31,872 nucleotides of DNA from a virus. The stretch lies in the IMG/VR virus record IMGVR_UViG_3300025120_000287, positions 1 to 31,872 of that record. The stretch is one strand, 5' to 3'. Below, piece by piece: positions 5,725-25,650 of the stretch. Position 1 is the stretch's first letter. Each line of letters opens with the position of its first letter. The notes below the pieces were generated by a model. It saw nothing but the letters and a program-made list of their open reading frames with translations, was not told where the DNA came from and made no database searches. Position numbers and translations under genes: made by a program.

Positions 5725-6301
5725 AGAATCCAGTCACGGTTAGTACATACCTATCTTCGTGCCCAACGTTACATCCGCTGTGAGGTGTGTCTTGGTTAAA
5801 GGTCAAGATGGTACCTTTTTTTAAGTTGTACGCAACATCTGAACCTACGAACAATGCATGACCTAGTTTTGGATCGGTCATTGATATCCATAGTCTTCTC
5901 ACCTTTTTTCTTTTCTTGGAATTATTTTCTAATCCAAAATCTCTCAGCATTGAATCATATCTATCGATATGAGGAATACTGACTGTTCCGGGCGGGTGAT
6001 GTAATATTTGCACTTTTGATTTATTTTTATCCATTTTGTATCTTCGCCAAAAACCTGCCGGGATCATTTCAAAGAGAATTGTATTAGTGTAACGATAGTA
6101 ATAACACACATTTTTGTTTGGGGTGTATAATTTTTTTACTTTTTTACTAAAAGCCAACTGGTCTCTGTTTCTGTTTTTGTGATAACTTGTTCTCTCATTG
6201 TCAAAGGTTGCATCTATCCTTGTGGATTTTTTTGATGTCAGCTTAATCATCTCATCAAATGGCATTTTAACCTTGCCTAAATATGTTATTTCTTTATGCA
6301 T
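5717..6301 (-). CDS. 2OG-Fe(II) oxygenase-like protein
   Basis: The protein has 194 residues. The iron-binding facial triad is visible as HID in SIPHIDRYD (about 109-114) and a distal His in DTPHSGCNVGHEDRY, followed by an Arg and a VLTVTGFYG strand as in prolyl/asparaginyl-hydroxylase-like folds. Such enzymes hydroxylate proteins, nucleic acids or small molecules using 2-oxoglutarate and O2. The substrate cannot be told. The gene overlaps the clamp-loader gene by 8 bases and the next gene by 8 bases. A second such protein is encoded at 29552-30319. Confidence 0.7.
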   Translation of the reverse strand: MHKEITYLGKVKMPFDEMIKLTSKKSTRIDATFDNERTSYHKNRNRDQLAFSKKVKKLYTPNKNVCYYYRYTNTILFEMIPAGFWRRYKMDKNKSKVQILHHPPGTVSIPHIDRYDSMLRDFGLENNSKKRKKVRRLWISMTDPKLGHALFVGSDVAYNLKKGTILTFNQDTPHSGCNVGHEDRYVLTVTGFYG

Positions 6302-7220
6302 TTGAAAGTCTTGCTAATTTTATCATTACACTTGCTAAATTAATTTCAGGATCAGCAACAAACGAATGATCAACTAATCCTTGCTTAATAATTAGTACTG
6401 CTTTGTCTTGGGCGTCTTCATTTTTGGCAACGATATCAAGGTTGTCATACAGCCATCTGTATATCTCCTCACACTCCTCTGGTCTCGCCTGGGCACACAC
6501 AAGTTTCCTTGCTTCTTGTATCTTGCCTTGTTTAAACAGCTCAACCATCTGCAGTCTGTAATCCTGTTGTCCCGAGTCTCCACTTGCTGGAGGCATAAGT
6601 TTACCATCCCTACAATTCTGTTGTAGCATGTTGATGCATTTTCTCAAATCAGGATACGATGCTTTCACATAAGTGTCAAGCACTTCTATGTCTGGGGTCA
6701 CTTGCTCTGTGATAAGAATCTCACAAGCTCTTGCTGTGAATTCTGTCTTGTCAATAGTTTCCATATGGAAGCCTTGGCATCTGCTGTGCAGTGCAGGGAT
6801 AACCCTGTTGGGATAGTTACAAGTTAATATAAATCTTGCTGATGTGTGATACATCTCCATGACACCACGCAAGGCCGCTTGTCCATTTGGACTCATGTAG
6901 TCTGCCTCATCTAGTAATACATACTTGTAATCACCAAATGGCATTATCTGTACGAAGTTGTTGATCTTCTCTCTAACTGTGTCCACTGAATTTTCTCTCG
7001 AGGCATTTATTTCTAGTATGTCATAACTGCTGACATCTAGTTCCCCAAACAACACTTTCGCAAGTGTAGTCTTGCCTACGCCAGGTGCACCACTTAATAG
7101 TAAGTGTGGGATCGCTTTGTCTGTGATCCAAGATTGTATTTGTTGTCGCTGTGCGTCGTCCCTAACAACATATTCTTTCAATGTCTTAGGTCTGTATTTT
7201 TCTACCCAAAGTTCTTTCAT
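6294..7220 (-). CDS. Sliding-clamp loader ATPase subunit (RFC-small/gp44-like)
   Basis: This 308-residue AAA+ protein loads the DNA polymerase clamp onto primed DNA. Walker A is GAPGVGKT (44-51), Walker B is VLLDEAD (101-107), sensor 1 is LTCNY (132-136), and the SRC arginine-finger motif is at 146-148. The N-terminal WVEKYRPKTL is typical of RFC small subunits and their archaeal and phage relatives. The C-terminal part is the helical collar domain. Length fits T4 gp44 (about 320 residues). A small-subunit partner such as gp62 is not seen in this window. A sigma70-type promoter within the end of uvdE lies 8 bases before its ATG. Confidence 0.9.
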   Translation of the reverse strand: MKELWVEKYRPKTLKEYVVRDDAQRQQIQSWITDKAIPHLLLSGAPGVGKTTLAKVLFGELDVSSYDILEINASRENSVDTVREKINNFVQIMPFGDYKYVLLDEADYMSPNGQAALRGVMEMYHTSARFILTCNYPNRVIPALHSRCQGFHMETIDKTEFTARACEILITEQVTPDIEVLDTYVKASYPDLRKCINMLQQNCRDGKLMPPASGDSGQQDYRLQMVELFKQGKIQEARKLVCAQARPEECEEIYRWLYDNLDIVAKNEDAQDKAVLIIKQGLVDHSFVADPEINLASVMIKLARLSNA

Positions 7221-7228
7221 ATGTTGTT

Positions 7229-7257
7229 ATTATATTAAATTTGATTCTCTTTGTCTA
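7229..7257 (-). promoter_or_regulatory. Sigma70-type promoter for the clamp-loader gene
   Basis: TAGACA (7252-7257), a 17-base spacer and TATAAT (7229-7234) precede the ATG at 7220 by 8 bases. The promoter lies inside the 3' end of uvdE. Confidence 0.6.
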
Positions 7258-8270
7258 TATAATTGTTCAGAGGCCATGTTCTTGCCCTTGGCTTCTACCT
7301 GTATGTCAAAATTTTCTGAGAACGATAATGCCCAGTCATTTACTGTTCTGTTTGGTAATAGATCCGAATGTGCCCGTAGTTTCTGTTTTTTGCAACCACG
7401 TTCCAGTAGATCCTTCATGTTGTGCATCTCTGTGTGCATAGTGTCTGTCAATCCTGCGACTGCAAGGTGCTCGTCTCTGGAATATGAATAATGCATACTG
7501 GGTCTCACACCACGCCATGAGTCTATGACTCTCTTGACTCTGTCGTCTGTGGCTTCTATGTATTCTTCATCTCTGATCCAGTGATGATGTATGTCTAGTA
7601 CCAATGCTAGATGTTTCTCAAGCATCAACGATTGATCCAATCCATGTGACATCTCGTCATTCTCTATGGTGATCAAGTTCCTTGCTTCTGGTGATAGTTT
7701 GGGTAGTGCTTTTATGATACCTTCCGGTCCTTGCTTGCCTGAGATGTGTACGTTTATCTTGCAACCATCTTGGAAGCTCTTGCCAAAGCCCATCCAACGT
7801 GCCAGGTCTGCATGGTATTCAAATTCTTCTATGCTTCTGTCTACTATCTCAGGTGTTGCACTTGCCAACACACAGAACTGTCCTGGATGGAAACTGATCT
7901 TGACATCATGTTTCCTGGATGCTTCTCCCACGGGTGCGAATATTTTTGCTAGGTGATCTTGTATCTCTCGTTGTTGCCACCATGCTTTCCAGTCCTTCTC
8001 CGTGTAGCCCTGCAACTGCTCACTGCCAAGTCTGACCATCCTACGTCCTGGCGGTAGTGTGCCAACACGTTCTATCATACGTACTGCCGCGGCTGAATTA
8101 TGATTCATGATGTCCCACTGTCGTTGTTCTGCCTCGTCCTTGTGTTCCCTCAACCAACGCATTGTCGTTGATCTGCCATTGAGATCTCTGTCCTTGGCAT
8201 TGACTTTCATTCCACCAAATTCAGATGTGTCATTGAGCCATTTACAGCAGAAGCCGATACGTTTGTGCAT
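7230..8270 (-). CDS. uvdE: UV damage endonuclease (UvdE/UvsE family)
   Basis: The protein has 346 residues. This TIM-barrel repair enzyme nicks DNA 5' to UV photoproducts. Family motifs are clear in order: RIGFCCKW at the N-terminus, MVRLGSEQ, SFHPGQF, INVHISGK, ITIENDEM, LDIHHH and MHYSYSRDE. The His, Glu and Asp metal ligands lie in these blocks. Length fits the bacterial enzyme (about 300 residues). The ATG lies 6 bases after a consensus TATAAT. A visible-light repair pathway independent of photolyase suits a phage in sunlit water; that habitat is inference. Confidence 0.9.
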   Translation of the reverse strand: MHKRIGFCCKWLNDTSEFGGMKVNAKDRDLNGRSTTMRWLREHKDEAEQRQWDIMNHNSAAAVRMIERVGTLPPGRRMVRLGSEQLQGYTEKDWKAWWQQREIQDHLAKIFAPVGEASRKHDVKISFHPGQFCVLASATPEIVDRSIEEFEYHADLARWMGFGKSFQDGCKINVHISGKQGPEGIIKALPKLSPEARNLITIENDEMSHGLDQSLMLEKHLALVLDIHHHWIRDEEYIEATDDRVKRVIDSWRGVRPSMHYSYSRDEHLAVAGLTDTMHTEMHNMKDLLERGCKKQKLRAHSDLLPNRTVNDWALSFSENFDIQVEAKGKNMASEQLYRQRESNLI

Positions 8271-8347: not shown

Positions 8348-8773
8348 TTACTTTTGTGATTCGTAGGCATCCAATGTTTTTTGGAATTTACCTGCGTGTG
8401 ACTTCTCTGCTTTTGCTAAAGTTTCAAACCAGTCAGCGATCTCGTCAAAACCTTCTTCTCTGGCTGTTCTCGCCATGCCTGGGTACATGTCTGTGTACTC
8501 ATGCACTTCACCCTTGACTGCAGATTTAAGGTTGTCCGCTGTCTCTCCCATCTTCTCACCTGTCGCTGGATCACCAACTTCTTCCAGGTACTCTAGATGT
8601 CCGTGTGCGTGTCCTGTCTCACCTTCGGCAGTGCTTCTGAACACAGATGCTACATCCGGTGCTCCTTCTATGTCGGCCTTCTGTGCGAAGTAAAGATATC
8701 TTCTGTTGGCTTGTGACTCGCCTGCGAAAGCATCTTTAAGGTTCTCGGCTGTTTTACTATCTTTCAGTTCCAT
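8348..8773 (-). CDS. Rubrerythrin-family diiron protein
   Basis: The protein has 141 residues and is a four-helix ferritin-like domain. Ligand residues appear in the right order: Glu19 (AFAGES), Glu52 with His55 (EGETGHA), Glu89/Glu92 (VKGEVHEY), and Glu123 with His126 (AEKSHA). The C-terminal rubredoxin domain of classical rubrerythrin is absent, so electrons must come from another donor. The family reduces hydrogen peroxide. The ATG is preceded by GAGGAAA as a Shine-Dalgarno. The leader contains a strong promoter followed at once by a hairpin with a T-run, suggesting attenuated expression. Its presence in a phage suggests protection against oxidative stress (inference). Confidence 0.88.
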
Positions 8774-9516: not shown

Positions 9517-10018
9517 ATTTGTTTAACTCTAACCATTTTGTTAATATATTTGTACTTCTAATGTCATTTATTTGTAAACCTTCTAGAAAATATGGTTTGT
9601 AGAGATCTGCAAGATCCACCTGTCTTTTGAAAATCTGCCGGCTGTTTCTCTGCCAATTCATGTGTTCCTCAAACGACAATTTATTATATGGCTTGTCTCG
9701 TTTTATTCTACTATAGAAAAAATTAGCTAACTTATAATCAGAACAATAACATAATATAGTATTATCTTTTAAAAGTAATGAGAATTTTAGATCATGACTA
9801 CTGCAAACACCTGTCACTTCAATAGATTTTACATACTGTATTTTCTCATCATAGGAAGTCTGCATAAATTTGTACCATTTCAATTTTAAAACTTCTTTGT
9901 CAAGCACCATGGTGTTGTCATTGAACCCTTGGAACACATCTGGATTGTAGAGTGCAGTTATTAAATCACCTGCAAATCCACCATTGAATAAAATAATTTT
10001 GAAGTCTTTGTTAATCAT
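9509..10018 (-). CDS. Unknown protein, 169 residues
   Basis: The N-terminus reads KIILFNGGFAGDLITALYNPD, a strand-glycine-rich-loop-helix pattern that could begin a Rossmann or P-loop-like domain such as phage sulfotransferase-like proteins. It lacks a full Walker A. The remainder is helical and charged. It starts 8 bases inside the end of the GroES-like gene. No family is assigned. Confidence 0.55.
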   Translation of the reverse strand: MINKDFKIILFNGGFAGDLITALYNPDVFQGFNDNTMVLDKEVLKLKWYKFMQTSYDEKIQYVKSIEVTGVCSSHDLKFSLLLKDNTILCYCSDYKLANFFYSRIKRDKPYNKLSFEEHMNWQRNSRQIFKRQVDLADLYKPYFLEGLQINDIRSTNILTKWLELNKYE

Positions 10019-10451
10019 TGCCAGGCAGTTTAGTCATCTGTTGGGCACCGCCCATGTTGACGTATCCTGCTTGTTTTGTATTGAACTCTGGCTCATCATC
10101 TGAGACTAGCAAGATATCATTCTCATCTATCATTCTCACTTCTAGTTCAACACCATCTTTCGCTACCTTGAATGCTCTCGACCATCTACCGTGTGCAACC
10201 ATCAACCATTGTCCAACTTCGACATCGTCTTGTTGATTGCCTATGGCATATACCTTTGCCCAACGTGGATGTATTCCGCCTGCAGAGCCATCATCGTCCA
10301 CAAGGATAATCCCGCCCTTGGATTTCGTTTCTCCAAAGTGCATGTCGGATACTAGTATTCTTTTTTTAAGAGGAGTTATGTCGTTATCGACAGTGTACTG
10401 TTTTCCACCATCTGATCCAAAACCTTTTGCTTGTGCTGATTTAATGTCCAT
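10011..10451 (-). CDS. GroES/gp31-like co-chaperonin
   Basis: The protein has 146 residues. The GroES beta-barrel is recognisable: ITPLKKRILVSDM, a glycine-rich mobile loop (FGETKSKGGIILVDD), HPRWAKVYAIGNQ, then EVGQWLMVAHGRW. The family caps GroEL; T4 gp31 replaces GroES for folding of the major capsid protein. Extra sequence at both ends makes it longer than host GroES (about 97 residues), as in other phage co-chaperonins. A promoter (TTGACG, 17 bases, TACAAT) lies 9 bases before the ATG, with no Shine-Dalgarno. Confidence 0.8.
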   Translation of the reverse strand: MDIKSAQAKGFGSDGGKQYTVDNDITPLKKRILVSDMHFGETKSKGGIILVDDDGSAGGIHPRWAKVYAIGNQQDDVEVGQWLMVAHGRWSRAFKVAKDGVELEVRMIDENDILLVSDDEPEFNTKQAGYVNMGGAQQMTKLPGND

Positions 10452-10460
10452 TATAGAACT

Positions 10461-10489
10461 ATTGTAACAGATTTAATCTATTCCGTCAA
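10461..10489 (-). promoter_or_regulatory. Sigma70-type promoter for the GroES-like gene
   Basis: TTGACG (10484-10489), a 17-base spacer and TACAAT (10461-10466, with a TG one base upstream) lie 9 bases before the ATG at 10451. The predicted leader is about 3 bases. The -35 is inside the preceding gene. Confidence 0.65.
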
Positions 10490-10904
10490 GTGCCGCGTCT
10501 ATGCCTTTGCTGGATTTGTTTTCCGTCTCTGGTTTGAAAGCACTGACTGTCTTGGTGACCGTTTTTGGTGCCGGTTCTACTTTCTTTTCAGCCACAGGTT
10601 TCGCCTTGGCAATAGGTGTCATTGATTTGACAGTTTTCTTGGGCTCAGTTTTTGGTGCTGGTGTAATTTTGGCTTTGGTAGGTGTATCGTCTACTACACC
10701 CTTGGGTGCTTCGTAGTATTTGCTTATAATTGCTTCCTTTGGTGTTGCAATTGAACCACCTGGTCCAACAATATCTCCCCTGGCATTGACATTCATATTA
10801 CCAACTGCTGGCACACTCTCGTTGGCCGATCGTAATTTTTCTATATCTACCATACGTCCTTGCATGGTTCTGTACATTCTTTTTCTTGGTGCTCTTGCTA
10901 CCAT
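10473..10904 (-). CDS. Unknown basic protein with a Pro/Lys/Ala-rich tail
   Basis: The protein has 143 residues. The N-terminal 60 residues look ordered and conserved-like (RMYRTMQGRMVDIEKL, then NMNVNARGDIVGPGG). Residues about 70-125 are low-complexity and rich in Lys, Pro, Thr and Ala, and the end is short and acidic. Such layouts occur in virion-associated or scaffolding-like phage proteins, but no function is proved. The start is supported by AGGAG before the ATG. It carries the -35 of the GroES-like gene promoter at its 3' end. Confidence 0.6.
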   Translation of the reverse strand: MVARAPRKRMYRTMQGRMVDIEKLRSANESVPAVGNMNVNARGDIVGPGGSIATPKEAIISKYYEAPKGVVDDTPTKAKITPAPKTEPKKTVKSMTPIAKAKPVAEKKVEPAPKTVTKTVSAFKPETENKSSKGIDAALDGID

Positions 10905-10930: not shown

Positions 10931-11452
10931 TCATCGTAAAAACTCAGCGATATCTAAATTGTAAAGCAGTGGATTGATTTTGTGTACACCTATCAAAAAC
11001 AAACAGAAACTGGCCACGCTTGATCCTCTTCCAACACCCCAAACAACATTATTGTCTCGTAGGGTATCGATGAAATATATCAAAAACTGTAAAACTTTAA
11101 TGAACTCCTTCTTCTCAAATAAATCATATTCGTGTTGTACCCTCATTTTTTCTTCATCTGTTTGACACTTGTCCAACATCCATTGTAGAACATTTATTTT
11201 GTAATATTTTTCTGGCATATGCCATTCATCTATATTCTTTTTATCAAAATCTTTTAGCGATTCTCTTTTTGGAGTCTTGTTGATGTTTGGTAGATCGAGT
11301 TTCAATCTATTGAGGCTAGATGTATATTTTTCCACATCGTCAAAAAATAGTTTTGATATATCAAACCCTGGATCATTGTAAAGTAAGTCCATTGCGTCTT
11401 GCTCAGTGAAAGTAACGTCACCGTGTTCGTTAGTACTTGTTTTTAGTAGCAT
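10931..11452 (-). CDS. Short DNA polymerase III alpha (DnaE)-like protein
   Basis: The protein has 173 residues. The C-terminal 45 residues match the conserved block of bacterial replicative polymerase alpha subunits: WGVGRGSSVASFCLFLIG (GRGS at 141-144), then INPLLYNLDIAEFLR, equivalent to the 'GRGS...DPL.Y.L.FERFLN' region. The catalytic aspartates of the DnaE palm come after this block and are absent because the protein stops here. It is therefore a fragment or a reused domain and not a polymerase. The ATG is 7 bases after TACAAT of a TTGACA promoter, so it is expressed as an independent unit. The N-terminal 130 residues are helical and unassigned. Confidence 0.65.
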   Translation of the reverse strand: MLLKTSTNEHGDVTFTEQDAMDLLYNDPGFDISKLFFDDVEKYTSSLNRLKLDLPNINKTPKRESLKDFDKKNIDEWHMPEKYYKINVLQWMLDKCQTDEEKMRVQHEYDLFEKKEFIKVLQFLIYFIDTLRDNNVVWGVGRGSSVASFCLFLIGVHKINPLLYNLDIAEFLR

Positions 11453-11459
11453 ACGATAT

Positions 11460-11489
11460 ATTGTAAACGCAATCCGCCTATTTTGTCAA
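11460..11489 (-). promoter_or_regulatory. Sigma70-type promoter for the DnaE-like gene
   Basis: TTGACA (11484-11489), an 18-base spacer and TACAAT (11460-11465) lie 7 bases before the ATG at 11452, giving a leader of about one base. Confidence 0.7.
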
Positions 11490-11496
11490 TGAGTAA

Positions 11497-12801
11497 TTAC
11501 AAATCCTTGAGCTCTTGGTAAATTTGTGGATAGGTATTTTTCCAATTGGTATTTCTTCTACGATCCAGCTCATTTAGATATATTTTAAACTGCTTCATTC
11601 TAATCAATTGTGGCTCTCTTTGCTCAAATTCTATCATATTACCTTCCATAAAATTCTTGTGATTTACCTTCACAGAGTCTGGGAAACCATTTGTGTTGGT
11701 ATCAAACAACTCAATTGCCTCTCGAAGTCCCCAATCATTTATTTTTTTTCCAAAAATACCGGGATAGAGATATGGCAACCCGTCTCCGTCATGGTTGGCG
11801 GCCTTTGTCATGCTCCAGTATATTGGTTTTATTTCCTTGGACCACTTGTTTATGTGTTTGACCATGTCCGGCATGCCCGGAACGGCTGTCACTGTCAACG
11901 CACTGTTGATCCCTTGCTCTATGTTAGTTTTATACAATATGTGATTGAAGTTTTCCAGGGCAAGTTTAAGATCCAATCCAGACCTCACGTATTCACCCTC
12001 CTTACCAAATGCATCACAACTGAAAAATATCTGCACTTTGTCTAGCCTGCCAGACTTCTGCAAACGATCGAGCCTATCGATCCACCCTTTAAATCTCTCT
12101 TGTTCAACATTATGATTACTGAAAAATACTAAAGTGAGATCCGGGTAGTCTCCCTTCTCAAGAAACTCTATGAATCTAAATGTCTCTTTCTGTAGGAAAG
12201 GTTCTCCGCCTAGCACAATTACTTTGTGTAGCTTGTGTAGATTATTTTCAAACCATTTGAATAAAAGCTCTGTGTCTCGCTCAATGTTTGGATTTAATTT
12301 AAAATTACTAGAGTCAAGTGTAACCCCGTCTTGGTCAAATCGTCCAAAACGTTTTTCTTCTTGATGTATTTGTGAACTATAATGGGCCGCACAATAAATG
12401 CAACGTTGATTACAGGTGTTCCCCCAGTACACTTCGAGCATCCTCGGAGTCACATGTACCGCTTCGGGCTCGGTTTCAAGTTCGGGAGGAGCAGTAGTAC
12501 CTTCCATTTTTAAATGTATTGTTCTATCCGAGTGTCCTCCTGCTTCCTCGATATGTTTACAATGTTCACAGCCGTTGCCCGGCCATATGCCTTCGAGCAT
12601 TTTTTTCCTGTCTGCAATTTTGTTAGGTATGTTGTGAAAGTTGATTTCACCATTGTCCGTGGTATACTTTCCAAATCCTGCTTTGTGACAGCTGGCGCTG
12701 ATACCATCTGTGAGATAGACTGTACTGTGTGTCCATTTTAATTGACAGGCTACGCCTTTGTTGATAGGGAAACGTTTAGGCGGTTGCTTTGAAATACCCA
12801 T
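11497..12801 (-). CDS. Twitch-type radical SAM protein
   Basis: The protein has 434 residues. The [4Fe-4S]-SAM motif C-x3-C-x2-C is Cys130, Cys134 and Cys137 (GNTCNQRCIYC). It is followed by VIVLGGEPFLQKE, which carries the GGE SAM-binding element. The N-terminal 110 residues contain Cys19, Cys38, Cys78 and Cys81, arranged like an additional cluster-binding domain, with a GNGCEHCKHIEE segment. Radical SAM enzymes of this group often modify peptides or carry out difficult rearrangements; the substrate is unknown. It starts 2 bases after the preceding stop, so it is co-transcribed with the 211-residue gene. Confidence 0.85.
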   Translation of the reverse strand: MGISKQPPKRFPINKGVACQLKWTHSTVYLTDGISASCHKAGFGKYTTDNGEINFHNIPNKIADRKKMLEGIWPGNGCEHCKHIEEAGGHSDRTIHLKMEGTTAPPELETEPEAVHVTPRMLEVYWGNTCNQRCIYCAAHYSSQIHQEEKRFGRFDQDGVTLDSSNFKLNPNIERDTELLFKWFENNLHKLHKVIVLGGEPFLQKETFRFIEFLEKGDYPDLTLVFFSNHNVEQERFKGWIDRLDRLQKSGRLDKVQIFFSCDAFGKEGEYVRSGLDLKLALENFNHILYKTNIEQGINSALTVTAVPGMPDMVKHINKWSKEIKPIYWSMTKAANHDGDGLPYLYPGIFGKKINDWGLREAIELFDTNTNGFPDSVKVNHKNFMEGNMIEFEQREPQLIRMKQFKIYLNELDRRRNTNWKNTYPQIYQELKDL

Positions 12802-12803
12802 GA

Positions 12804-13439
12804 TTATTTCTTAGTATTTTTCCCACCGTCTAATACCTTGGGTTGAAATTTGAAAACTTTGGCATGATATTCGTGTTTATTATCTACTGGTATTGTTTGG
12901 TTGTTCCAACTGAAGTGTCCAGTGTATATTCCCTTGTCAAGTTCCTGATCGAATGTAGCAGTATCGGGTCTCAACCACCATGGATCGAATTTAGTAAATT
13001 TAGGTGTCCACCAGTCATTTCTATCGAGTAGTAATAGTTCATTACTATCTTTTGTTATGCTGTAAGTAATGCCGTCGCCTTGCCAAGATGAAAGTTCTAT
13101 TGTGCTTATAGTAATTTTACTATCCAGTATTGAATTAGCCTTGCAGAAACACACCGCGGCCATTATTTGATCGTATGGTGGTTTTGGCAATTCTATAAAT
13201 CTGTTCGTTGTGCTTTTTTTGAGAGTGAGATACAACGGTTCGTCTCTCCAAGTTGTGATCGTGTTGGCAAAAATCTGTTCGAACAGATTTTTCAACCTAT
13301 CAAAGTATTCGGTTTGTTCTTTCAGGTTTGCTGTGTGAGTGCAGAGTGAAACATTCACACTGTATTCATTAGGAAACAGTTCTCCGTCTACGATTATAAT
13401 TGATTTGAATTTTGTCTTCCAAGTAAAACTGTTTGGCAT
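12804..13439 (-). CDS. Unknown protein upstream of the radical SAM gene
   Basis: The protein has 211 residues, is soluble and is rich in aromatic residues in its second half. Notable segments are ELSSWQGDGITYSITKDSNELLLL, DRNDWWTPKF and DPWWLRPDTATFDQELDKGIY. It has no signal peptide and no known motif. It is separated by 2 bases from the radical SAM gene, so it may be its partner or substrate carrier; this is inference from spacing only. Confidence 0.6.
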   Translation of the reverse strand: MPNSFTWKTKFKSIIIVDGELFPNEYSVNVSLCTHTANLKEQTEYFDRLKNLFEQIFANTITTWRDEPLYLTLKKSTTNRFIELPKPPYDQIMAAVCFCKANSILDSKITISTIELSSWQGDGITYSITKDSNELLLLDRNDWWTPKFTKFDPWWLRPDTATFDQELDKGIYTGHFSWNNQTIPVDNKHEYHAKVFKFQPKVLDGGKNTKK

Positions 13440-22004: not shown

Positions 22005-22739
22005 TTCTTTCCATTTTATATCATCTCTATAACCATCTATCCATCTTTGTAAGTCGGCGTATGTGCCACACTTTATATTGGATTGATCAAAGTACCATTT
22101 CAAAAAAGTATTGCCTTCGATGTATTCTTTCCTGTTGATGAAATAAAAATTAGTTTTGGGGAATTTCCTAAACGTCTGCCTTAGATGATACATCCATTCG
22201 TATTTGAGATATGCTTTCATGCTGTCCCTGTTAGGATAGTTTACAGTATTTTTATAGATATTATTTTGTAGTCTACTAGGTTCATCCATTTCCCATTGTT
22301 GGGCACCCAGTATGTCAAATGCTAAAATCACAACGTTTTTGATTCCCGATTCGGCCGCCATCAGCACCGCCGAACAACCAGAACCTCTGGACTTGGAAAA
22401 GTCATTTGTTTTTATTTTTCCTTTTTTGATGTCCCCACCTCTCCATATCCTGTATATTTTTAGTCCCTCAGGAACTTCCATTTCTTTGTCACCTTCGCAT
22501 ATGAAATTCCATTTCGGTATGTCGTCTATTCCGTGTATCTCTGGAGATTCTTTGCCATCGTTGTGCCAACGCAGTAATTCATCATACATCTCAGGGCTGA
22601 CTCCTACAATGTGATCACACAGCTTAGGATGATCCCTATATATGGCGTTGCACCCGTATATCTTGCCGTTGCCTTTTAACGTTTCTATTGGAAAAATATT
22701 TCTTGATTCACCGTTGCCTATTATGAAAGCTGTGTCCAT
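21999..22739 (-). CDS. GNGESR-family protein, possible sialyltransferase/DUF115-like fold
   Basis: The protein has 246 residues. It opens AFIIGNGESRNIFPIETL and GKIYGCNAIYRD, a Rossmann-like strand and nucleotide loop. Later it has SGCSAVLMAAESGIKNVVILAFDILG, the equivalent of the second half of the fold. The same pattern occurs in the protein at 26724-27359, so they are paralogues. The layout resembles GT42 sialyltransferases and DUF115/MptE-like proteins; the function is not proved. The ATG at 22739 shares a base with the TAA of the IscA gene, and GGAG lies 4 bases before it, so this start is preferred to one at 22769. Confidence 0.65.
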   Translation of the reverse strand: MDTAFIIGNGESRNIFPIETLKGNGKIYGCNAIYRDHPKLCDHIVGVSPEMYDELLRWHNDGKESPEIHGIDDIPKWNFICEGDKEMEVPEGLKIYRIWRGGDIKKGKIKTNDFSKSRGSGCSAVLMAAESGIKNVVILAFDILGAQQWEMDEPSRLQNNIYKNTVNYPNRDSMKAYLKYEWMYHLRQTFRKFPKTNFYFINRKEYIEGNTFLKWYFDQSNIKCGTYADLQRWIDGYRDDIKWKEL

Positions 22740-23074
22740 TATACTCCAAAGGATTCTCCACAACCACACGAACTAGAACTGTTTGGATTTGATATCTCGA
22801 ACTGTGAACCAAAGGTTTCTTCTACCCAGTCAATTTTCGTTCCAGCCACGTACAGCATGGATGTTTCATCAACAACAAATCTGCCTGTACCCCAGTCAGT
22901 CATTTCGTCGCCCTCCTTGATCTCTTCCTTTGTTGTTATGAATCCCCACTCGTATTTAAATCCTGCACAACCGCCACCTAGCACCGCCAGGCTCACTGCG
23001 TACTTGTCCGTATTCTTTTCAAGCAGTTTCTCCATTTGACCTTTTGCAGAATCTGTAATATCAAACCATTTCAT
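22739..23074 (-). CDS. A-type Fe-S cluster carrier (IscA/HesB family)
   Basis: The protein has 111 residues. The three conserved cysteines are present: Cys36 (GGGCAGFKYEW), and Cys103 and Cys105 (SSCGCGESF). The domain is complete from ITDSAKGQMEKLL to the C-terminal CGCG. Such proteins accept [2Fe-2S] or [4Fe-4S] clusters and pass them to target enzymes. The ATG at 23074 is preferred to an upstream one because the family begins here and it lies 1 base after the preceding stop. In this genome likely recipients include the radical SAM protein (inference). Confidence 0.88.
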   Translation of the reverse strand: MKWFDITDSAKGQMEKLLEKNTDKYAVSLAVLGGGCAGFKYEWGFITTKEEIKEGDEMTDWGTGRFVVDETSMLYVAGTKIDWVEETFGSQFEISNPNSSSSCGCGESFGV

Positions 23075-23075
23075 A

Positions 23076-23399
23076 CTAGTAATTATCTTTCTTTGTACCA
23101 CTGTTTTGAATCCCCACGGACATCCAGAATTTTGTAGCATCTATTTTATTTTCAAAACTCATGTAGGCGTTTTGGTGCTCCCAGTGATTGGCCGGGTTTT
23201 CTATCTCACCTGCGGGTTTGAACCACCAACCCCACTTTCCGGTGCAATTTGTTTGGCACCAGTCTATGCAATCACCTGCTACACCGTTGTTGTTCATGTC
23301 TATGTTGAATTCAAAATGTTGCATGTAACCACAATCCTCTGGTATTTTTTCTAAACCTGGATTACTTCTCTGTACTTTTACTTTACCGTATGTGGTCAT
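23076..23399 (-). CDS. Unknown Cys/Trp-rich small protein
   Basis: The protein has 107 residues. The centre is unusual: GDCIDWCQTNCTGKWGWWFKP, with three Cys and several Trp, then NHWEHQNAYMSFENKIDATKFWMS. It has no signal peptide. The cysteines could bind metal or a cluster, which would fit its position directly before the IscA gene. The TAA of the glycosyltransferase gene overlaps its ATG (TAATG). No family is named. Confidence 0.6.
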   Translation of the reverse strand: MTTYGKVKVQRSNPGLEKIPEDCGYMQHFEFNIDMNNNGVAGDCIDWCQTNCTGKWGWWFKPAGEIENPANHWEHQNAYMSFENKIDATKFWMSVGIQNSGTKKDNY

Positions 23400-24100: not shown

Positions 24101-25262
24101 AACCTTGTTTTAACCTTTCTATTTGTATCTGTTTCCAACTGTCGCTATCGAGAGTGTAAGGATATTCGCACTCTGTTGTGGGACCTGTAATTGTTCTAAT
24201 ACTTTTGATATTTAAATTATTATTCATTGTTTGATGTATATCTTGGATGGAGGCATCTGTGCCAAATGTCCTCTGTATGTCCACCTGTCCTATCTTTATG
24301 TAACCCAGTGACAGTTTAGGATCTTCCCAATCATATCCGTTATCTTTAAGCCATGTCCTGTATTGATCCATTTCTTCTTTTTTAAAGTCATGATCGGTTT
24401 CTGTTATCGTCTGTCCCCACTCGATGTCAAACTCGCCGGAGTAAAATTTTTGATGGTTAATTTCTGAGCATAGTGTTTCGGTCATGACGGGTGCATGTTC
24501 ATCTCTAAATACCTCAAACAATGTCTTACCTACTTGTGACCAGTGTAGATAAACACCGCCCAACTCTCTGTCGTACCTGTTCTGCTTGAACAACTCAAAG
24601 TCTTTCTCATGCAAATCATGTCTAGGTGCATTCAAAAATGTTGTGATCTGAGAAGGTCTCATCCATTCAGGTTCTATTGCTTTTTTACGATCTGAGTTGA
24701 CCCAACTTTCTATCTCATGACAGATATTGTTAAGTTGCCTGATAGCATATTTGGTTTCGTGGTCTGCCTGTTTGTAATATTTAGATATTTGCCATGCAGT
24801 ACCTTGTAGATCTTCAAAATATCTATGTAGAAGATTACAACTTTCGTGTTTAAGTCTTTTTCCCGGTGTTGCAGATTCATCACCGTTGATTGCCTTGCCT
24901 ATGGGCAGGCTACTGCTGTATTGGAAGTCGTCACCAACAAAAGGATGTATACTTTCGTATGGAGGTTCAAACTCGAAAGAATTGATTGTTGCAATATTTT
25001 CATTAAGTTCTCTAACAAGATAAGTCAGGTCTCTTTTTGAGTCAGCAAACCCTAGGAAGCAAAAGTTTTTTTCAAGTACCCTTTGATGTTTGAGATTATC
25101 TTTGAGTGCTTCCATCCACCTGTATCCTAACGGTGTGTCGTATACTTGGAAGTAGTAGGCCTTATCAGTCAGGCCTACTCTAACCATATCATGTATGAAT
25201 TTATTCTTTTCTGTAGATGGCACTATTGGCTCCGTGTTCCATGCATTCACATTCAACGACAT
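24078..25262 (-). CDS. Large unknown protein, 394 residues
   Basis: No known domain is recognised. The protein is soluble and rich in Trp, His, Tyr and acidic residues, with segments such as VGLTDKAYYFQVYDTPLGYRW, RYDRELGGVYLHWSQVGKTL and DPKLSLGYIKIGQVDI. Its length and even composition suggest an enzyme or a virion protein. The start is uncertain: the frame is open to 25337, but the ATG at 25262 is the best placed. Either choice overlaps the queD-like gene (by 62 bases for 25262). The end overlaps the glycosyltransferase gene by 23 bases. Confidence 0.6.
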   Translation of the reverse strand: MSLNVNAWNTEPIVPSTEKNKFIHDMVRVGLTDKAYYFQVYDTPLGYRWMEALKDNLKHQRVLEKNFCFLGFADSKRDLTYLVRELNENIATINSFEFEPPYESIHPFVGDDFQYSSSLPIGKAINGDESATPGKRLKHESCNLLHRYFEDLQGTAWQISKYYKQADHETKYAIRQLNNICHEIESWVNSDRKKAIEPEWMRPSQITTFLNAPRHDLHEKDFELFKQNRYDRELGGVYLHWSQVGKTLFEVFRDEHAPVMTETLCSEINHQKFYSGEFDIEWGQTITETDHDFKKEEMDQYRTWLKDNGYDWEDPKLSLGYIKIGQVDIQRTFGTDASIQDIHQTMNNNLNIKSIRTITGPTTECEYPYTLDSDSWKQIQIERLKQGYESRSMR

Positions 25263-25650
25263 AACATCTATTATTTGTTGCGGCTCTGATGATATCATCA
25301 GCGGTATCAAAGGCGTGTTTGGCAAACATCTCAGCACCTACGCCGTCAAATATTGTTATCTCGGCGAGATCCAGTTCTTCCAGTTCCTTGAACTTGTCTA
25401 GATGTGGATCGTTTTCGTCCAACACCAATTTATGGTCAAAGTGGTTTTCCAACCATTTCTTGAGTGGTTTCAATCCTCCAAAGTCCACTGCCCAGTTCTT
25501 GTTGTCCAGGTCCTTGCAACCAAATGTGAATTTGAATGCCAGGCTGTATCCGTGCAGTAAGTGACAGTGTGAGTGATCTGCGTTAGGTTGTCTAAACACC
25601 GCAGACAGTCCTATGTTGTGTCCGTATGTTTTAGTTGAGTAGTAAGTCAT
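25201..25650 (-). CDS. queD: QueD-like 6-carboxytetrahydropterin synthase family protein
   Basis: The protein has 149 residues. Family features are His11, a His/Cys-rich DHSHCHLLHGY segment (Cys29, His33), VDFGGLKPLKKWL, FDHKLVL, GVGAEMFA and CMEHGANSAIY. QueD makes 6-carboxytetrahydropterin for 7-deazaguanine (preQ0) synthesis; phages use this pathway to modify DNA or host tRNA. The usual second zinc His of L-H-G-H is Tyr35 here, a variant seen as L-H-G-Y in some relatives. AAGGAG before the ATG supports the start. Other queuosine genes are not in the window. Confidence 0.8.
   Translation of the reverse strand: MTYYSTKTYGHNIGLSAVFRQPNADHSHCHLLHGYSLAFKFTFGCKDLDNKNWAVDFGGLKPLKKWLENHFDHKLVLDENDPHLDKFKELEELDLAEITIFDGVGAEMFAKHAFDTADDIIRAATNNRCYVVECECMEHGANSAIYRKE

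Follow-up and report, generated by a model that had tools for sequence, protein, structure and literature searches.

Family C DNA polymerases are large, single-chain enzymes and are thought to need many accessory domains. In the group 2.2 jumbo phages, a split minimal polymerase III (Pol III) alpha subunit has been described beside a family B polymerase; it comprises an N-terminal NTP-binding protein and a C-terminal Mg- and template-binding protein, encoded by distant genes (Iyer et al. 2021, PMC7824862). The split enzyme was predicted in 2021, and the literature we searched yielded no biochemical test of it. Pectobacterium phage CBB carries a truncated "DNA polymerase III alpha," CBB_328 (PMC5259590), and gp316 of Atu_ph07 has been described as a truncated or predicted alpha subunit (PMC6102473); the available parts of these two accounts make no mention of a second half. 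The two-protein reading applied below was already reached by Iyer et al. (PMC7824862). What is new is the addition of marine members, the near-perfect co-occurrence of the two halves, the exact split point, and the place of the C-terminal half in the replication module.

Here we analyzed a 31.9-kb phage genome fragment of 31,872 nt (record IMGVR_UViG_3300025120_000287), referred to in its entirety as the window. Two of its features resemble part of Pol III alpha:

10931 to 11452, minus strand: predicted N-terminal unit (N-unit) of a split minimal Pol III alpha, 173 amino acids (aa), ATG at 11452, with Pfam, PHROGs, and profile matches
10937 to 11038, minus strand: GVGRGSS...DIAEFL block with the nucleotide-binding GS motif, N-unit residues 139 to 172, corresponding to Escherichia coli alpha 359 to 392

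The homology of this protein to Pol III alpha is established. Residues 93 to 172 match positions 15 to 94 of the 260 in Pfam DNA_pol3_alpha (E value, 4e-11), with a score above the curated cut-off, and the entire protein matches phrog_11127, a 171-aa "DNA polymerase" family (E value, 2e-46). Profile-profile alignment placed residues 98 to 173 on E. coli alpha 318 to 393 (E value, 1.3e-10), and Pol III alpha chains were the closest PDB sequences. The C terminus sits 8 residues before the position of the catalytic D401, and the N-unit therefore lacks any catalytic aspartate. The earlier note on this DNA was right to recognize a conserved piece of DnaE that stands alone and lacks the catalytic residues; its open reading frame (ORF), on the minus strand, encodes 173 aa and ends in the GRGS block. 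The complete DnaE or PolC layout, with PHP, catalytic aspartates, thumb, and fingers on one chain, was not found in the N-unit; its features are those of the split form, a stand-alone protein of ∼170 aa whose C terminus comes after the GRGS block but ahead of the catalytic DxD.

A search for conservation in other phages, which the earlier note had proposed, showed that the phrog_11127 family is conserved in marine loci and in jumbo phages. Copies of the N-unit are carried by 80 IMG/VR loci (71 to 79% identity, 173 to 177 aa), with the stop at the same position or no more than 2 residues away, apart from one copy cut by a contig end. More distant relatives (32 to 45%) occur in T4-type jumbo phages, including MIJ3/PA5oct, 121Q, CBB, Phosso, SCTP-2, and Atu_ph07. 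CBB_328 and gp316 belong to this family, with ∼33% identity over the alignment, the same length class, and neighbors like those in the window (small proteins and a gp44-type clamp loader). A scan of viral_contigs with the Phosso N-unit returned zero relatives, and DnaE matches in actinophages and a Bacteroides phage fell outside the N-unit family, being mostly annotated DnaE-like polymerases (the one examined was a protein of ∼1277 aa).

GRGS was kept in 103 of 103 fetched N-units, all with about the same end point, and G139, G141, R142, G143, S144, and S148 of the GS motif were invariant. The gene is under strong purifying selection: the median pairwise dN/dS was 0.09, and pN was only 0.02 in residues 137 to 158, which span the GRGS block. 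Conservation peaks in the active-site GS block. Being short and partial relative to DnaE, the N-unit could be taken for a decaying or accidental dnaE fragment, but that idea is refuted by the near-constant length and end point of some 100 copies from widely differing phages, by the low dN/dS, and by a conserved gene neighborhood, and we give it practically no weight. The earlier claim that the protein is not a decaying tail is upheld by the full-length copies.

The immediate surroundings of the N-unit in the window contain the following:

11460 to 11489, minus strand: sigma-70-like promoter TTGACA-N18-TACAAT, located 7 nt upstream of the N-unit ATG and specific to the window
11497 to 12801, minus strand: radical-SAM gene that separates the N-unit from the gene normally upstream of it; absent from this position in the relatives examined
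12804 to 13439, minus strand: 211-aa ORF, the usual upstream gene of the N-unit
10473 to 10904, minus strand: small protein of the phrog_14844 type; in jumbo phages, too, a small protein gene is repeatedly found here
10011 to 10451, minus strand: GroES-like co-chaperonin (phrog_931, Cpn10), a conserved neighbor
6294 to 7220, minus strand: clamp loader of the T4 gp44 type, which jumbo phages conserve in the same cassette

In T4-type jumbo phages, the N-unit is repeatedly followed by a small protein, a GroES-like co-chaperonin, and the gp44 clamp loader, and the window has the same order from the N-unit to gp44, with additional genes before gp44. Upstream, in 78 of 79 relatives, the ortholog of the 12804 to 13439 gene runs at its 3′ end into the N-unit start codon; the 5′ end of the N-unit in the window differs, in that the radical-SAM gene separates these two otherwise overlapping genes. 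This extra gene and the promoter also distinguish the window from the group 2.2 jumbo phages (PMC7824862), as does the origin of the window and its relatives, which are marine contigs with a largest size of 196,581 bp. An Alishewanella member of the family has a genome of 141 kb, compared to the limit of over 200 kb for a jumbo phage.

The earlier note had also argued from the N-unit having its own strong promoter. The element at 11489 to 11460 is probably real: sigma-70-like sites that match 11 or more of the 12 positions number 10 in the window, where 1.35 would be expected, and every one lies on the coding (minus) strand. The window phage seems to use strong host-type promoters. However, the element was absent upstream of the N-unit in 79 of 79 relatives checked, so a family-wide N-unit promoter was rejected. 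The promoter of the N-unit is a local rearrangement that is uninformative about the family, and as an argument it is weak, since it is unique to the window.

To locate the rest of the polymerase, we searched the whole genomes of five jumbo phages and the marine relatives with the Pfam finger and DNA_pol3_alpha models, and no further DnaE domain scored above the curated cut-offs. A second half could nonetheless be traced through weak, sub-threshold Pfam finger matches in ORFs of ∼200 aa. This C-unit is a separate protein of about 196 aa (ORFs of ∼190 to 216 aa; phrog_11778, "DNA polymerase") that scores poorly against Pfam on its own (E values, 0.006 to 0.2). A CBB match at 53183 was rejected as a C-unit, as three stops interrupt the frame of the match and the ORFs at this location encode other proteins.

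C-units open with or near D[VI]DID[FV], as MPDVDIDF or after a short leader, and carry all three catalytic aspartates (the counterparts of D401, D403, and D555) together with shortened fingers. Their homology to Pol III alpha is likewise established. The C-unit begins at E. coli alpha 400 and aligns over 509 to 643, with K66 and D68 on K553 and D555 and with FKKSHAVAYA as the counterpart of the GFNKSHSAAYA motif near 753. Retained in order are PDVDIDF (400), KH..G (510 to 514), K-x-D (553 to 555), the P...RP block (625 to 640), and KSHA..Y (near 757 to 763). Measured against the thumb and finger domain limits of E. coli alpha, ∼78 residues are missing at the thumb site and ∼87 in the fingers. 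D3, D5, D7, K66, D68, R135, and P136 were invariant in the alignment, and the C-unit dN/dS was 0.06. The gene is placed among those for a UvsW-type helicase, a primase, and a DnaB-type helicase. It is flanked by a convergent gene (L090, 160 to 534; L094, 10717 to 11091; phrog_11637 in the marine phage) that is conserved in the marine, Phosso, 121Q, and CBB phages.

We then compared the distributions of the two units. Among isolate-phage records, 60 had an N-unit (E values up to 1e-8) and 63 had a C-unit, with all 60 shared; 57 of these were listed in both tables, and the other three were deduced from genus counts, one of them (Munch) with direct confirmation. The three records with only a C-unit came from a RaK2-like phage (record length, 109 kb) and two Alishewanella phages, one of which, when tested with a family profile, proved to have a divergent 170-aa N-unit adjoining a GroES-like ORF. 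The units lie tens to hundreds of kilobases apart in the isolate records. They are 182 kb apart on the linear record of the 196,581-bp marine contig, a nearly full-length relative and the only marine contig with both; the others, of 27 to 122 kb, carry one unit or the other. The earlier note had named the rest of DnaE, encoded nearby as a split gene, as grounds against its reading; in relatives it is indeed a split gene, but a distant one. Neither a C-unit nor any second polymerase piece was found in the 31.9-kb window, and we therefore infer the partner from relatives and place it in the unsequenced part of the phage genome. A family B polymerase, expected by the earlier note for a T4-type phage, was present in all five jumbo phages and on two of four marine contigs (G001 and G002, including the 196-kb one).

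The same note had proposed that the N-unit could be a decoy that engages part of the host replisome and interferes with replication of the host, as might befit a stand-alone block of a host-type enzyme without catalytic residues. We found no support for such a role, and consider it very unlikely. Every isolate record with an N-unit also encodes the matching catalytic half, and the best-conserved part is the active-site GS block, for which a decoy has no obvious need. Moreover, the clamp-, tau-, and epsilon-binding regions of Pol III alpha lie outside the segment kept in the N-unit.

The two units are complementary: the N-unit ends at E. coli alpha 393 and the C-unit starts at 399 to 400, and together they therefore tile the palm. 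No split intein was found at the break, where N-units end in EFLR or EFLK and C-units start with MPDVDIDF or a short leader, leaving no room for one, and no fused N-plus-C ORF was found among the fetched loci. AlphaFold models of each chain singly had mean pLDDT values of 83 (N-unit) and 90 (C-unit). Pol III alpha and PolC were the only high-probability PDB fold matches of both, with weak Foldseek E values (best, 0.004 to 0.008) and moderate TM scores. Compared to full-length E. coli alpha (1160 aa), the phage proteins keep the same palm segments (318 to 393 in the N-unit, 399 to ∼770 in the C-unit) and the same catalytic residues, on two chains without the PHP, thumb, clamp-binding, OB, and tau-binding regions.

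We consider it likely that the window ORF encodes the N-terminal subunit of a minimal Pol III catalytic core that is made of two proteins and acts beside a family B replicase. The N-unit would supply the helical palm segment, with its GRGS motif holding the incoming nucleotide triphosphate, and the C-unit would supply the palm sheet with three metal-binding aspartates and the cut-down fingers. Brought together in trans, the two may form a single active site of ∼370 residues, devoid of PHP, thumb, clamp-binding, OB, and tau-binding parts, which could serve in gap filling, repair, or strand-specific synthesis. Loss of the thumb casts doubt on efficient DNA synthesis by such a core. The missing thumb, PHP, OB, and clamp-binding parts, and the presence of a family B polymerase, would also suit assembled halves with another function, either as a nucleotide-binding scaffold, inactive or regulatory, or as a nucleotidyltransferase that works without copying a template. 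We regard this as improbable, given that 150 of 150 C-units retain the D-x-D-I-D and K-x-D motifs, and with them all three catalytic carboxylates, and that 147 have the K.H[AS]..Y motif of the fingers.

Returning to the two-subunit core, we put forward more tentatively, at somewhat short of even chances, that hundreds of marine phages use it as an active second polymerase alongside their family B replicase, for example in gap filling or on one strand, and that it is possibly the smallest natural family C polymerase. If so, a natural split core of ∼370 residues, conserved in two genes, would show the minimum for family C chemistry. It would also give a phage replisome with two polymerases and provide a compact system for structural and mechanistic work. 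The marine members enlarge the set of candidates.

On another contig (IMGVR_UViG_3300017744_000031), a compact ORF of ∼562 aa (L135, 14451 to 16139, plus strand) resembles Pol III alpha on a single chain, without PHP, and lies ∼4 kb from a split C-unit. A further C-unit contig (G007, 16802 to 16876) holds just 25 residues that are 80% identical to the C-terminal end of this ORF. The window itself encodes several likely auxiliary metabolic or repair genes, namely, those for the UV endonuclease UvdE (7230 to 8270), a rubrerythrin (8348 to 8773), an A-type iron-sulfur carrier (22739 to 23140), and a PTPS/QueD-like protein (25201 to 25650). At the contig edge (31312 to 31866), there is a class III adenylate/guanylate cyclase domain (PF00211; E value, 3.5e-22), which is unusual in a phage and whose ORF probably extends past the contig end.
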